Shown: positions 34,270 through 40,270 of the stretch, in pieces | Numbering within the stretch: position 1 is the first letter of the stretch | Layout of the letters: each line of letters begins with the position of its first letter | Source of the DNA: Chloroflexota bacterium | Lineage (GTDB): Bacteria > Chloroflexota > Limnocylindria > Limnocylindrales > CSP1-4 | Assembly (NCBI GenBank): GCA_021787395.1 | Contig: JAJYLZ010000002.1 | Location: 1-64,000 of the forward strand | Length of the DNA: 64,000 bases | Direction: 5' to 3' | Made by a program: the position numbers and the translations under genes | The notes under the pieces: model-generated | The model's database searches: none | Told to the model about the DNA's origin: nothing | What the model saw: only the letters and a program-made list of their open reading frames with translations

Positions 34270-34677
34270 TCAGCGGCTCGTCGCCAGGCCCTCGATCACC
34301 CGCTCGAGCCGCGCCTTCGCCTCCTCCGCGACGGACGCGATCGCCGGTTCCCGGACGATGCCGAGGACGGCGAGCGGGTCCATTGCCTCGACGATCGTCT
34401 CCGGCCCGTCCTCGCGCAGCACGACGTTGCACGGCAGGAGGGCGCCCACCGACGGGTCCGCCTCCAGGGCCCGATGGGCGAGCGGCGGGTTGCACGCGCC
34501 CAGGATCACGAACGGCGGCCGGTCAACCCCGAGCTTGGCCTTCATCGTCGCCTGGACGTCGATCACGGTGAGGACGCCGAAGCCCTCAGCCCTCAGGGCC
34601 GCCTCGACGCTGGGACGGACGTCGTCGATCGACCCGATCATCCGGGTCCCGAAGGTGTAGCCCGTCGTAGTGATCAT
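34270..34677 (-). CDS. DUF302 family protein
   Basis: A 135-residue protein fitting DUF302: TYSFGT-like start (YTFGTRMIG), EAALRAEGFGVLTVIDVQATMKAKLG, FVILGACNPPLAHRALEADPSVGALLPCNVV and a C-terminal helix. DUF302 proteins bind as dimers and are often near metal or redox genes; two cysteines (ACNPP and LPCNV) are conserved features. The ATG at 34677 follows CAGGGG. Function is unknown. Confidence 0.85.
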   Translation of the reverse strand: MITTTGYTFGTRMIGSIDDVRPSVEAALRAEGFGVLTVIDVQATMKAKLGVDRPPFVILGACNPPLAHRALEADPSVGALLPCNVVLREDGPETIVEAMDPLAVLGIVREPAIASVAEEAKARLERVIEGLATSR

Positions 34678-34826
34678 CGGTACCCCTGTGGTGTCCGGGT
34701 CGGTGAAGCGGAGCCGGTCCACGGTGGCCTGCTCCAAGGAAGTCGCGCCAGGTGATGTTGTGCGGCGGGCCCTCGAATGCCAAGAGCCGACAGGCTCGTG
34801 TCAGCGATTGGACCCGAGTCAGCCGC

Positions 34827-35120
<294 letters not shown>

Positions 35121-35133
35121 GGCTCCCCTTCCT

Positions 35134-37104
35134 TTAGGCCCGTGCGGCGCGGAGGCCGTTGGCCACCGCGAGCAGCTCTGCCCCCTCGTGGACGGTGACG
35201 ACGAGGACGACCGTGAACAGGCCGCCCGCCGCGCCCAGGATGAGGATGGGCAGGATGACCAGCGAGAACGCCAGGTTCTGGCGCGACACGCGGCGCGCCT
35301 TGCGGCCGATCCGCAGGGCGTAGCCCGCCTTCTCGAGGTCGTCGGCCATGAGCGCGACGTCGGCCGCCTCGATCGCGGCGTCGGAGCCCGCGGTCCCCAT
35401 TGCCATCCCGACCGTCGCTGCGGCGAGGGCCGGCGCGTCGTTGACGCCATCACCGATCATCGCCACCGCACCGTGCTCGCGCTCGAGCTCGCGGATGGCG
35501 GCGACCTTGTCCTCGGGCTTCAGGCCCGCCCGGACGTCGTCGATCCCGAGCTCCCGGGCGATCGCGCGGGCCGTCCGCGGGTGGTCGCCGCTCAGCATCA
35601 CGACTCGCCCGACCCCCAGGCGGTGCAGCTCGGCAACGGCCGCGGCGGCGTTGGGCCGGACCTGGTCGCGGATCGCCAGCAGGCCGAGGACCCGCACGCC
35701 GGCCGTCGCGTCGGCGGGACCCTCGCCGACGAGGACGACCGTCTTGCCCTCCTCGCGCATCTCCTCGAGGAGGGCCGCGGTCGCGGCCGACGGTGCGGCA
35801 CCGAGCTCGCCGAACAGGTCGGGGCTGCCGACGTGGACGAGGCGGCCGTCGAGGCGCGCCGCGGCGCCGGCTCCGGTGAGGGCCGCGAAGTCGGTGGCGT
35901 CCGACGGGACGACGCCGTGCTCGCTCGCGGCGGCGACGATCGCCCGCGCGAGCGGATGCTCCGACAGCCGCTCCACGCCGGCGGCGGCCGCCAGCAGGCC
36001 CGCCTCGTCGGTGCCGTCGAGCGGGACGATGTCCGTCACGACCGGCCGGCCGTGGGTGAGCGTCCCCGTCTTGTCGAGCGCGACCACCCGGACCGTGCCC
36101 AGGTTCTCGAGGTGGATGCCGCCCTTGATGAGGACGCCGCGCCGGCCGGCCGAGCCGATCCCGGCGGCCATGGCGACCGGCGTCGACATGACCAGGGCGC
36201 ACGGTGCGCCGGCGACGACGACCGTGATCGCCCGGGTGACCCACTCCCTGGGGTCGCCGCCGAGCGCGATCGGGACGATCGCCAGGAGCGCCGCGCCGAC
36301 GAGGACGAGCGGGCTGTAGACGCGGCTGAAGCGGTCGATGAAGCGCTGGGCCGTGCCCTTCTGGCCCTGCGCCTCCTCGACGAGGTGGATGAGCGCGGAC
36401 AGGGTGTTGTCCGCGAACGCCTTGGTCGCCTCGATCGTGAGCGCGCCCTGGCGGTTGATCGTGCCCGCGAACACCGGGTCGCCCGGGCCCTTGTCGACCG
36501 GCACGCTCTCGCCCGTGACCGGCGACTCGTCGAGGCTCGACGCGCCCGCGCGGATGACGCCGTCGGTCGCGAGGCCCTCGCCCGGCCGGACGAGGAAGAC
36601 GTCGCCGGGCACGAGGTCGGTCGCCGGGATCGTCAGCTCGGCGCCGTCGCGCAGGACGTGCGCCTCCTTCGGTGCGAGGTCGAGCAGGGCGCGGATGGCC
36701 GAGCGGGTCCGGGCGAACGTGAGGGACTCGACGGCCTCGGCCGAGCCGTAGAGGAAGACCAGGAACGCCGCCTCCTCCCAGAAGCCGAGCGCCGCCGCCC
36801 CGACGGTGGCGACCGCCATCAGGACCTCGATGCCGACCTCGCGCTCCGAGACCAGCTCCTCGAGGCCCTCGCGGGCCCACCAATAGCCGCCGAATGGAAT
36901 CGAGGCAAGGTAGAAGGCGATGGGCAGTGGGCCGGGCAGGAGGCCGGTAATCGATCCGAGCCAGCCCGCCGCCAGCAGGACTCCCGAGACGGCCGCGCCA
37001 AGGATCGGCGGGTAGGTCCACCACGGACCGGCGTGGGCGCCCTCGCGCTCCTCGTCCTCGTCGTGGTCCTCGTGATCGTCGTCGCGCACGTGGTCGGTCG
37101 GCAT
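35134..37104 (-). CDS. Heavy-metal P1B-type ATPase, P1B-4-like
   Basis: A 656-residue metal efflux ATPase. An Asp/His/Glu-rich N-tail (residues 4-24) may bind metal. The core has [10 protein letters not shown], the phosphorylated DKTGTLT (Asp 344), SEHPLARAI and [10 protein letters not shown]. The membrane metal motif is APC (300-302), not CPC or the P1B-4 SPC, while the last helix reads [12 protein letters not shown] like the P1B-4 HEG signature. Cobalt, zinc, nickel, cadmium or lead are possible. It diverges from a CmtR-like regulator, which favours cadmium or lead as inducer. Confidence 0.9.
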
Positions 37105-37204
37105 CGGTCACTCACGTCCTACTGGCTGGTAATTCACGCATTGCTGAAACGATACTCCCGCGATCTGGCCACGGGACAGGCCGTCCGGACCGAGGTTGAT
37201 GATC

Positions 37205-37242
37205 GACAGGCCTGTCTGAGGCACAGGAGGGGTGGCTATTGT
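37205..37242 (+). promoter_or_regulatory. Palindromic operator and leaderless promoter of the ArsR/MtrA operon
   Basis: The perfect 12-bp palindrome GACAGGCCTGTC (37205-37216) overlaps the expected -35 position. A -10-like TATTGT (37237-37242) ends exactly 6 bases before the ATG at 37249, the spacing of leaderless mRNAs. GGAGG at 37226-37230 is too far from the ATG to serve as a ribosome site. Repression by the CmtR-like protein of both divergent operons is a reasonable inference. Confidence 0.5.
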
Positions 37243-37248
37243 TCACTC

Positions 37249-37683
37249 ATGCCTGAACCGATGACAGTGGCTGGGCGCCCTTCGCTCGAAATCGAGACCA
37301 AGCTCCACCGCGGTCTCGCCGATCCCTCTCGCCTCGCCATCCTGCGCGAGCTGCGCCGAGGCCCGCTGACCGCCGGCCAGCTGGCCAGCTTGGTTGGGCT
37401 GACGCCGCAACGGGCGTCGAACCACCTGCGCTGCCTGCTCGAGTGCGGCCTCGTCGCGATGGAGCCACGAGGCCGCTACAACGTCTACCGGCTCGCCGAT
37501 CCCTCCGTCGGTCGGCTGCTCGACGCGTCGGCGCGCGTCCTGGCCGAGGTGGCCCCGCAGATCGAGGCATGCCTCAACTACGGGCCGCCAGATCGGCGCT
37601 CCTTGCGTCCGCCTCCAGGCGCGTCCCCGGACGCCGAGCAGCGGGGCGATCGGGCGACGGCGCAACAGAAGGAGACGTACTGA
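37249..37683 (+). CDS. ArsR/SmtB regulator, CmtR-like (Cd/Pb sensor type)
   Basis: A 144-residue winged-helix repressor. The cysteines Cys62 and Cys66 in NHLRCLLECGLV plus Cys108 in QIEACLNY reproduce the spacing of the mycobacterial Cd/Pb sensor CmtR (57, 61, 102). After residue 110 is a disordered Pro/Arg tail. Its TGA shares one base with the ATG of the next regulator. It is divergent from the P1B-type ATPase, the classic CmtR target. Confidence 0.85.
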   Translation: MPEPMTVAGRPSLEIETKLHRGLADPSRLAILRELRRGPLTAGQLASLVGLTPQRASNHLRCLLECGLVAMEPRGRYNVYRLADPSVGRLLDASARVLAEVAPQIEACLNYGPPDRRSLRPPPGASPDAEQRGDRATAQQKETY

Positions 37684-37925
37684 TGATGGGGCTCATCCAC
37701 GCCCTCGTCCGGGCCGGCGAGCTCTCATGGGGCGAGTTCGCGGCCAGCGTCGCGATGACCCCGCAGGCCGCATCGAACCAGCTCACGCGGCTGCTGGACC
37801 TGCGCGTCGTCGCCTCGGAGCGACGCGGCGCCCGCGTCTACTACCGGCTCGTCGATCCCTGCGTGCCCGGCGTGCTCGACAAGGGCCTCTGTGTCGCTGA
37901 GGAGTCGGCCCGATGGCGGCCCTGA
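37683..37925 (+). CDS. Half-size ArsR-like winged-helix protein
   Basis: Only 80 residues, containing the recognition helix and wing of an ArsR domain (SVAMTPQAASNQLTRLLDLRVVASERRGARVYYRL) and two cysteines near the C-terminus (DPCVPG, GLCV). The N-terminal helices that form the ArsR dimer core are nearly absent. It is translated from a TGATG junction with the preceding regulator and overlaps the MtrA-like start by 13 bases. It may form heterodimers or act as a decoy. Confidence 0.7.
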   Translation: MMGLIHALVRAGELSWGEFAASVAMTPQAASNQLTRLLDLRVVASERRGARVYYRLVDPCVPGVLDKGLCVAEESARWRP

Positions 37926-39376: not shown

Positions 39377-40270
39377 TCATGCGTGGCTCCTCTCCTCGAG
39401 CCGCCGGCGGTCGGCGGTCTCGAGCTGGAAGGTGGAGTGCTCGATGTCGAAGTCGTCGGACAGGCACTGGCACAGCGCGTCGAGGGTCAGGGCCGGGTCG
39501 GCGCCGTCGGCCACGATGACGTGGGCCGAGACCACGTTCATGCCCGACGTGATCGTCCACGCGTGCAGGTCGTGGCAGTCGACGACGCCGGGCGCGTCGA
39601 GGATGTGCTGGCGAACGTGGTCCATGTCGATGCCCTTGGGGGTCGCCTCGAGGAGGACGTCGGTGGCGTCCCGGAGGAGGGCCAGCGTCCGCGGCAGGAT
39701 CAGCAGCGCGATGGCCACGGACGCGACCGCGTCCGCCTGCGCCCAGCCGGTGGCGGCGATGACGAGCGCGGCCACGATGACCGCGGCCGAGCCCGCGAAG
39801 TCGCCCATCACCTCGAGGTAGGCGCCGCGCATGTTGAGGCTCTCCCCCTGGGCCTGGCGCAGCAGGCGGAGCGACACGCCGTTGGCGGCGAGTCCGACGA
39901 GCGCCACCGCGAGCATCAGCCCCGACGCGACCTCGGGCGGCGCGGAGAGCCGCTGCCACGCCTCGTAGAGGATGAATGCCGCGACTCCGAACAGCAGGAG
40001 CGCGTTGGCCACCGCGGCCATGATCTCGACCCGCAGGTAGCCGAAGGTGCGGCCGTTGGTCGCGGGACGTCCGGCGAACCAGATCGCGAGCAGGGCCAGG
40101 CCGATGCCCGACGCGTCGGTGAGCATGTGCCCGGCATCGGCGAGCAGGGCGAGGCTGTGCGAGGCGAGCGCGCCCGTGGCCTCGACGACGAGGATGACGA
40201 GGCTGAGGCCGAGCACCGCAACGAGGCGATTGCGGCTCGCCGCGGCGGCCGACCCGTGGGCGTGCGCCAT
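39377..40270 (-). CDS. Cation diffusion facilitator (CzcD/ZitB-like Zn/Cd exporter)
   Basis: A 297-residue CDF protein. TM2 has HSLALLADAGHMLTDASG with the HXXXD metal ligands, TM5 has AYLEVMGDFAGSAAV with a metal-binding Asp (here preceded by Val-Met-Gly, the usual position being HXXXD), and the cytoplasmic domain has VVDCHDLHAWTITSG and DIEHSTFQLE with conserved histidines. It exports divalent metal by proton antiport. It is coupled by TGATG to the ArsR gene upstream, which likely represses it. Confidence 0.93.
   Translation of the reverse strand: MAHAHGSAAAASRNRLVAVLGLSLVILVVEATGALASHSLALLADAGHMLTDASGIGLALLAIWFAGRPATNGRTFGYLRVEIMAAVANALLLFGVAAFILYEAWQRLSAPPEVASGLMLAVALVGLAANGVSLRLLRQAQGESLNMRGAYLEVMGDFAGSAAVIVAALVIAATGWAQADAVASVAIALLILPRTLALLRDATDVLLEATPKGIDMDHVRQHILDAPGVVDCHDLHAWTITSGMNVVSAHVIVADGADPALTLDALCQCLSDDFDIEHSTFQLETADRRRLEERSHA

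Follow-up and report, generated by a model that had tools for sequence, protein, structure and literature searches.

A beheaded AntR-type repressor gene as the probable scar of a rearrangement that placed an MtrA-DUF4346 gene behind a CmtR-like regulator

Why should the gene of a complete metal-sensing repressor run directly into a gene that encodes only part of another ArsR protein? In the window (the whole stretch of 64,000 nucleotides analysed), P1 (37249..37683, + strand; a CmtR-like ArsR/SmtB repressor of 144 aa) and P2 (37683..37925, +; 80 aa) were borne out as open reading frames that overlap by TGATG, with P2 comprising the winged-helix core of an ArsR protein only. A sequence-only reading of this DNA had taken the overlap to mean translation of P1 and P2 at a fixed ratio, and hence a P1/P2 heterodimer or a dominant-negative role for P2. 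The next gene was unmentioned there: P3 (37913..39037, +; 374 aa), with a Cys-rich N-terminus, an MtrA-type cobamide domain and DUF4346, begins at an ATG (37913) inside the end of P2, giving a 13-nt overlap. On the minus strand, a heavy-metal (Cd-type) P-type ATPase gene (35134..37104), unmentioned as well, diverges from P1, and a small ferredoxin gene with Fer4 domains (34827..35120) follows it at 13 nt with a ribosome site of its own; beyond P3 lie a cation diffusion facilitator (CDF) gene (39377..40222, the ATG at 40222 having been picked within a longer open reading frame) and, upstream of the latter, P4 (40270..40656), a further ArsR/SmtB repressor. A search for RNA elements between 35000 and 41000 returned none at gathering score. 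A DUF302 protein gene is located near the ATPase cluster (34270-34737, -).

P1 scored above cut-off as an ArsR winged helix (HTH_5, 49.6 bits against 22; HTH_metalloreg, 71 against 55), and its best solved relative was CmtR (2jsc, E 3.7e-13), the Cd/Pb sensor Rv1994c of Mycobacterium tuberculosis. The metal ligands of CmtR are Cys57, Cys61 and Cys102. The sole cysteines of P1 are Cys62, Cys66 and Cys108, whose spacing of 4 and 42 residues is close to the 4 and 41 of the CmtR positions 57, 61 and 102 given in PMC7863910. Like CmtR, P1 carries two cysteines in the region of the recognition helix (HLRCLLECGLV in P1, HLSCLRGCGLV in CmtR) plus a C-terminal cysteine, is tied to a metal P-type ATPase (an ATPase lies within 1.5 kb in 6/10 other P1 copies) and is likely to repress itself. 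Unlike CmtR, it has a C-terminal motif of its own (IEAC.NYG), a candidate operator of TTCA-N8-TGAA type and a third cysteine that falls one residue off in the phmmer alignment, in which Cys62 and Cys66 pair with Cys57 and Cys61. P1-type genes occur in 8 of the 177 genomes of the class, with 11 copies in total; the cysteine-bearing motifs CLL[ED]CGLV and IEAC.NYG are kept in all 11, and the cysteine trio is therefore not a matter of chance. The suggested CmtR likeness stands as far as the closest solved structure and the three conserved cysteines are concerned, but the score on the curated NCBIfam CmtR model (66 bits) is below its cut-off of 150; on paper P1 would work like CmtR, yet it is not filed as CmtR. 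Beside one P1 ortholog, a very short Cys-rich open reading frame that looks metallothionein-like by eye follows a MerR-type gene (L018:395-478, +).

The operator first suggested for P1, GACAGGCCTGTC, was dropped as unconserved: its single copy (37205-37216) recurred only in loci containing the window's own stretch and in none of the ortholog loci. The preferred and likely candidate, judged by motif enrichment, is TTCA-N8-TGAA, which occurs twice in the 64 kb (expected, 0.01), both times between the ATPase and P1 starts: as TTCACTCATGCCTGAA over the P1 start codon (37242..37257, +) and as TTCACGCATTGCTGAA upstream of the divergent ATPase gene (37133..37148, +). The whole 3.45 Mb genome holds the pattern in four places, two of them at the P1 locus, and a reversed control pattern in two. 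Across the 11 P1 loci (37 kb), 22 exact copies were counted, with at least one in each, against a background of 14 in 79 loci that had been retrieved by way of P3 and add up to 808 kb. The palindrome lies exactly over the start codon in the window's P1 and in two orthologs (G003, locus L114; G015, locus L117), and with one mismatch over the P1 start codon in L115 and L116. In L120, L122 and L123, where P1 start codons are uncertain, exact palindromes were located further upstream; in L118, L119 and L121, none was found within 250 nt of P1 with one mismatch allowed, each of these loci having one elsewhere. Many copies read, by eye, as TATCGTTTCA-N8-TGAAACGATA, placing the palindrome over a -10-like box. 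Near the G003 ortholog of P1, an exact TTCA-N8-TGAA also covers the start of a gene that appears LspA-like (signal peptidase II) by eye (L114:2750-2765). In the window, a -10-like box recognised by eye (TATTGT, 37237..37242, +) ends 6 nt ahead of the P1 ATG, a leaderless-type spacing which suggests that P1 may be leaderless. Since P2 has its own AAGGAG (37669-37674, +), a possibly leaderless P1 speaks against the fixed translation ratio.

Which kind of ArsR protein P2 derives from was addressed through the P3 gene behind it. The P3 alignment was scanned against 84,980 species genomes, and the best 80 of 483 confirmed candidates were taken. Of these best 80 loci, 39 have an ArsR gene, read in the same direction, no more than 1.5 kb upstream of the P3 relative (one of them being a relic in the sister genome G003), and the ArsR genes beside P3 relatives are of at least three types. 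One type corresponds to P2: the full-length orthologs that the sequence-only reading had named as the mark of simple decay are present upstream of the P3 gene in 22 of the best 80 of 483 loci, within 100 nt of the P3 relative in 19, in hosts from the Planctomycetota, Acidobacteriota, Verrucomicrobiota, Chloroflexota and deltaproteobacterial lines. P2 scored 94.1 bits on the model built from these 22 proteins; the P1-type model gave it 41.7, and a model of 16 other P3-linked ArsRs 23.6. Both halves of P2, scored apart, agreed on the P2-type family, and the end with DPC..GLC gave 35.6 bits for the AntR type against 8.8 for the P1 type. The best solved relative of P2 is AntR (6uvu, titled an antimony-specific repressor; E 9.5e-19), to which a full-length P2 ortholog aligns over 113 residues (E 8.9e-41), that is, nearly end to end. 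AntR operates with the pump AntA in Comamonas. Close plasmid relatives of P2 likewise carry the antR annotation, and one of them has the genes of a P-type ATPase and of a small protein as neighbours.

Residues 3-76 of P2 correspond to residues 46-119 of the antimonite-responsive AntR, the DPC and GLC cysteines included; D.C and G[LW]CL are present in 22/22 proteins of the P2-type family. What P2 lacks relative to AntR is everything before helix 2, the N-terminal cysteine and the helix-3 cysteine (LCV replaced by LSW), the latter being present by pattern in 16/22 P2-type proteins. P2 begins in helix 2; with the first helix and about 40 residues in all absent, it has neither the complete AntR dimer fold nor the full cysteine set. 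Its score on NCBIfam HTH_metalloreg (E 3e-13) stays under the model cut-off, and its fold matches ArsR structures. AlphaFold, run with 12 proteins in the alignment, gave a bare winged helix with a best mean pLDDT of 76 (the other four models, 52-59) and a weak, short last helix. By its alignments and profile scores, P2 derives from an AntR-type (antimonite) ArsR gene of which the 3' two-thirds remain, about 77 of about 121 codons (37692..37925, +). Two other ArsR proteins that seemed truncated like P2 (L071 and L091) were rejected as parallels, the DNA continuing to an upstream GTG (looked at in L071); their shorter rows were retained in the tree and the model.

That P2 arose by recent tandem duplication of P1 and then lost its first third is suggested by its position as the next gene in the same direction and by 48% identity over 58 aa. 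In the tree, for which the L033 relic was left out and rows longer than 150 aa were cut to the last 130, P2 falls within the P2-type (AntR-type) clade with support 99/99, on a branch of 1.41 compared with a median of 0.19; given this long branch and its shortness, the AU test leaves a tree with P2 beside P1 unrejected (p 0.448). The AU test alone is insufficient here, but the profile scores rule the duplicate out: P2 fits its own family at more than 94 bits and P1's at about 42, its DPC..GLC end fits the AntR type only, and its synteny with P3 orthologs extends across many phyla. The chance that P2 is a copy of P1 is close to nil.

The sister genome G003 indicates where the break points lie. 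Among 151 genomes (the window's own and its relatives), it is the only other one with a P2, of which about 35 codons are left; upstream of this remnant stands another gene, which looks methyltransferase-like by eye and has no Pfam match, and downstream come the P3 ortholog (84%), the CDF gene and P4. G003 carries its P1 ortholog on a separate contig, where a gene with a SHOCT domain comes next. The 30 nt around the P2 start (37661..37690, +), containing ATGATGGG and the AAGGAG ribosome site, match the G003 P1-SHOCT spacer and SHOCT start at 24/30 positions, a match equalled by 0/5000 shuffles and 0/4922 random pieces. Homology of P2 to the full-length P2-type proteins begins at residue 4. Combined, the two results lead to the reading of P2 as two genes joined: residues 1-3 are the SHOCT start (MMG) with the SHOCT ribosome site, residues 4-80 the 3' part of the AntR-type gene, and the join falls at 37690-37692. 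The TGATG "coupling" of P1 and P2 is then a by-product.

The join is known from a single assembly, and both genomes are drafts (96 and about 100 contigs), so the P1-P2 junction could in principle be an assembly chimera. When the junction DNA was searched against 101 relatives, matches came up in every genome, but those outside the window were short and of a chance-like kind (the best, 37 nt long, had E 4e-5), and the search was set aside. The joined piece carries the G003-type P1-SHOCT spacer and continues in frame, and G003 has another truncation of the same gene; a chimera is therefore considered very unlikely.

A functional half-repressor, pairing with P1 as a heterodimer or dominant negative or competing with it for operators, would be in keeping with several properties of P2: its frame is open over 80 codons with a coding-like GC3 of 0.91, its ribosome site is strong, it overlaps P1, its predicted winged-helix core includes a recognition helix, and both its identity to P1 and the AU test leave room for kinship. 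Because the reading frame is intact, P2 is likely to be translated. G003 has 24 codons of P2 in common with the window; counted by codon position, the differences there number 5, 2 and 5, and the stretch is too short to separate constraint from drift. Nonsynonymous changes affect 5/24 of these codons, similar to 59/374 in P3. Against a modulator stand the AntR-type rather than P1-type family of P2, the loss of helix 1, which belongs to the dimer interface of ArsR proteins, together with a short, low-confidence last helix, the few codons that the sister species kept, and a start derived from the SHOCT gene. Additionally, no P2-like open reading frame follows any of the 10 other P1 copies within the fetched flank, where the P1 gene itself was the sole match to P2. 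The full-length orthologs, the G003 remnant, the lack of partners at 0/10 copies and the borrowed start thus speak against the heterodimer or dominant-negative proposal. A modulator role is rated improbable, a dedicated heterodimer partner is unlikely, and most likely P2 is without function as a regulator. As a half-regulator it would be ordinary debris, and recognising it as such averts a false story of a "dominant-negative ArsR".

The reading preferred here, with a probability of about 0.86, is that P2 is a beheaded AntR left by a rearrangement and that P3 now stands under the P1 promoter. According to this reading, P1 would repress itself and the divergent P-type ATPase through TTCA-N8-TGAA sites over both promoters, and a thiophilic metal, for instance Cd(II) or Pb(II), would be expected to bind Cys62, Cys66 and Cys108 and free P1. 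We infer that the rearrangement removed the SHOCT gene behind P1 while sparing the first three codons and the ribosome site ahead of them, that it also took the first third of an antR-type gene, and that the remains were fused in frame. The fusion product would be an AntR without helix 1, its N-terminal cysteine and its helix-3 cysteine. P3, presumably the gene left over from an AntR-type operon, would thereby have been placed under the P1 promoter, and control of this cobamide-type protein probably shifted from an AntR-type to a CmtR-like regulator. The locus would accordingly be the scar of a regulator exchange, with the break point placed within a few bases. Observed here are the homologies, the break points, the synteny and the enrichment of the motif; which way events ran, which metal is sensed and that P2 lost its function are deduced.

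P2 may still be translated, mainly bringing translation and a ribosome site to P3. That it is kept for this purpose, the P2 protein itself being roleless, is a serious possibility at somewhat below even odds. The 13-nt overlap and a likely P3 ribosome site within the P2 end (GAGGAG, 37899..37904, +) agree with it, and G003 retains both the overlap and the GGAG of that site; the comparison, however, involves two genomes only and few codon changes. Retention for the sake of P3 is compatible with the beheaded-AntR explanation, not opposed to it.

P3 scored above cut-off for MtrA (123.8 bits against 25) and DUF4346 (78.2 against 29.6), while its 446 bits on the NCBIfam equivalog NF002128 are below the cut-off of 568. 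Residues 101-266 resemble MtrA, the corrinoid subunit of the methyl-H4MPT:CoM methyltransferase, with 35-39% identity and target TM values of 0.84-0.90 (5laa, 5l8x); the P3 model, built with 27 proteins in the alignment, matches cobalamin-bound MtrA (5laa) at a target TM of 0.88. Unlike MtrA, P3 has a Cys-rich N-terminus and a C-terminal DUF4346, is bacterial, and lies beside metalloregulators and metal pumps. For the Cys-rich head, no fold match was present among the matches listed. Across 27 aligned P3 relatives, 59 positions are invariant, including seven cysteines in the Cys-rich head and His184; an eighth invariant cysteine (C123) is within the MtrA domain. His184, invariant in 27/27, aligns to the GH motif of MtrA and is a candidate axial cobalt ligand; PMC4915002 gives MtrA His84 as the axial ligand and as mostly kept in bacterial homologs. 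Selenocysteine was considered for P3 relatives and rejected: three loci have a stop in the matched stretch, two of these are terminal, and the internal TGA of L067 is not at a cysteine position. That in-frame TGA (L067:6565-6567) is probably a damaged gene or a sequencing error.

Within the class, proteins of the P3 type are rare, found at E 1e-10 in 4/151 genomes, with the full architecture only in G000 and G003, and no description of an MtrA-DUF4346 protein of this type was found in the open-licence literature. P3 belongs to a widespread, seemingly undescribed group tied to metalloregulators and metal pumps; Dechloromonas hortensis and Paenibacillus naphthalenovorans, both culturable, are among the carriers of P3 relatives. 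P-type ATPases lie near P3 relatives in 11 of the best 80 of 483 loci, and additionally in G168, where the ATPase gene overlaps the P3-type gene. A census of neighbours covered 107 of the 115 open reading frames located downstream and 92 of the 110 located upstream, most AntR-type ArsR frames having been left out upstream by choice; in raw counts, it found DsbD/CcdA-type membrane proteins (12/107) and thioredoxin folds (7/107) downstream, and MerC (3/92) and small multidrug pumps (4/92) upstream. The mobilizable Planococcus plasmid pA26H3 carries, one after another, genes for ArsR, a cation transporter, a P-type ATPase and a DUF4346 protein. Efflux operons of the cad and ant types combine ArsR with a chaperone and a P-type ATPase; the locus in the window shares the regulator and the P-type ATPase with them and differs in the corrinoid-type P3 as an additional component.

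Tentatively, P3-type proteins may be a horizontally moving part of bacterial metal(loid) defence working through a cobamide, perhaps by methyl transfer, and this locus may have been caught in a change from an Sb-type to a Cd/Pb-type switch, the beheaded former sensor remaining in the middle. If so, P3-type proteins would act on thiophilic metals or metalloids, next to P-type pumps and regulators of the AntR, CadC and ArsR types. P3 makes a role of cobamides in metal(loid) defence beyond HgcA-type mercury methylation directly testable.

Several further observations concern P3-type genes and their neighbours. The ferredoxin gene (34827-35120, -) and the corrinoid-type P3 belong to the same presumed regulon, which recalls the corrinoid-ferredoxin pairing of HgcA/HgcB. 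P3-type genes directly adjoin metal P-type ATPase genes in L025 (G168), L089, L090, L096, L097 and L131, loci that represent unrelated lineages and pA26H3. A tandem pair of ArsR-type matches lies upstream of one P3 relative (L069:633-1354). Gammaproteobacterial P3 relatives (L052, L055, L056, L061, L112) come after a CadC-like ArsR gene and a further small gene, which encodes MerC in L052 and a small-multidrug-type pump in L056, and in these same five loci the P3 relative is followed by thioredoxin-like and DsbD/CcdA genes.
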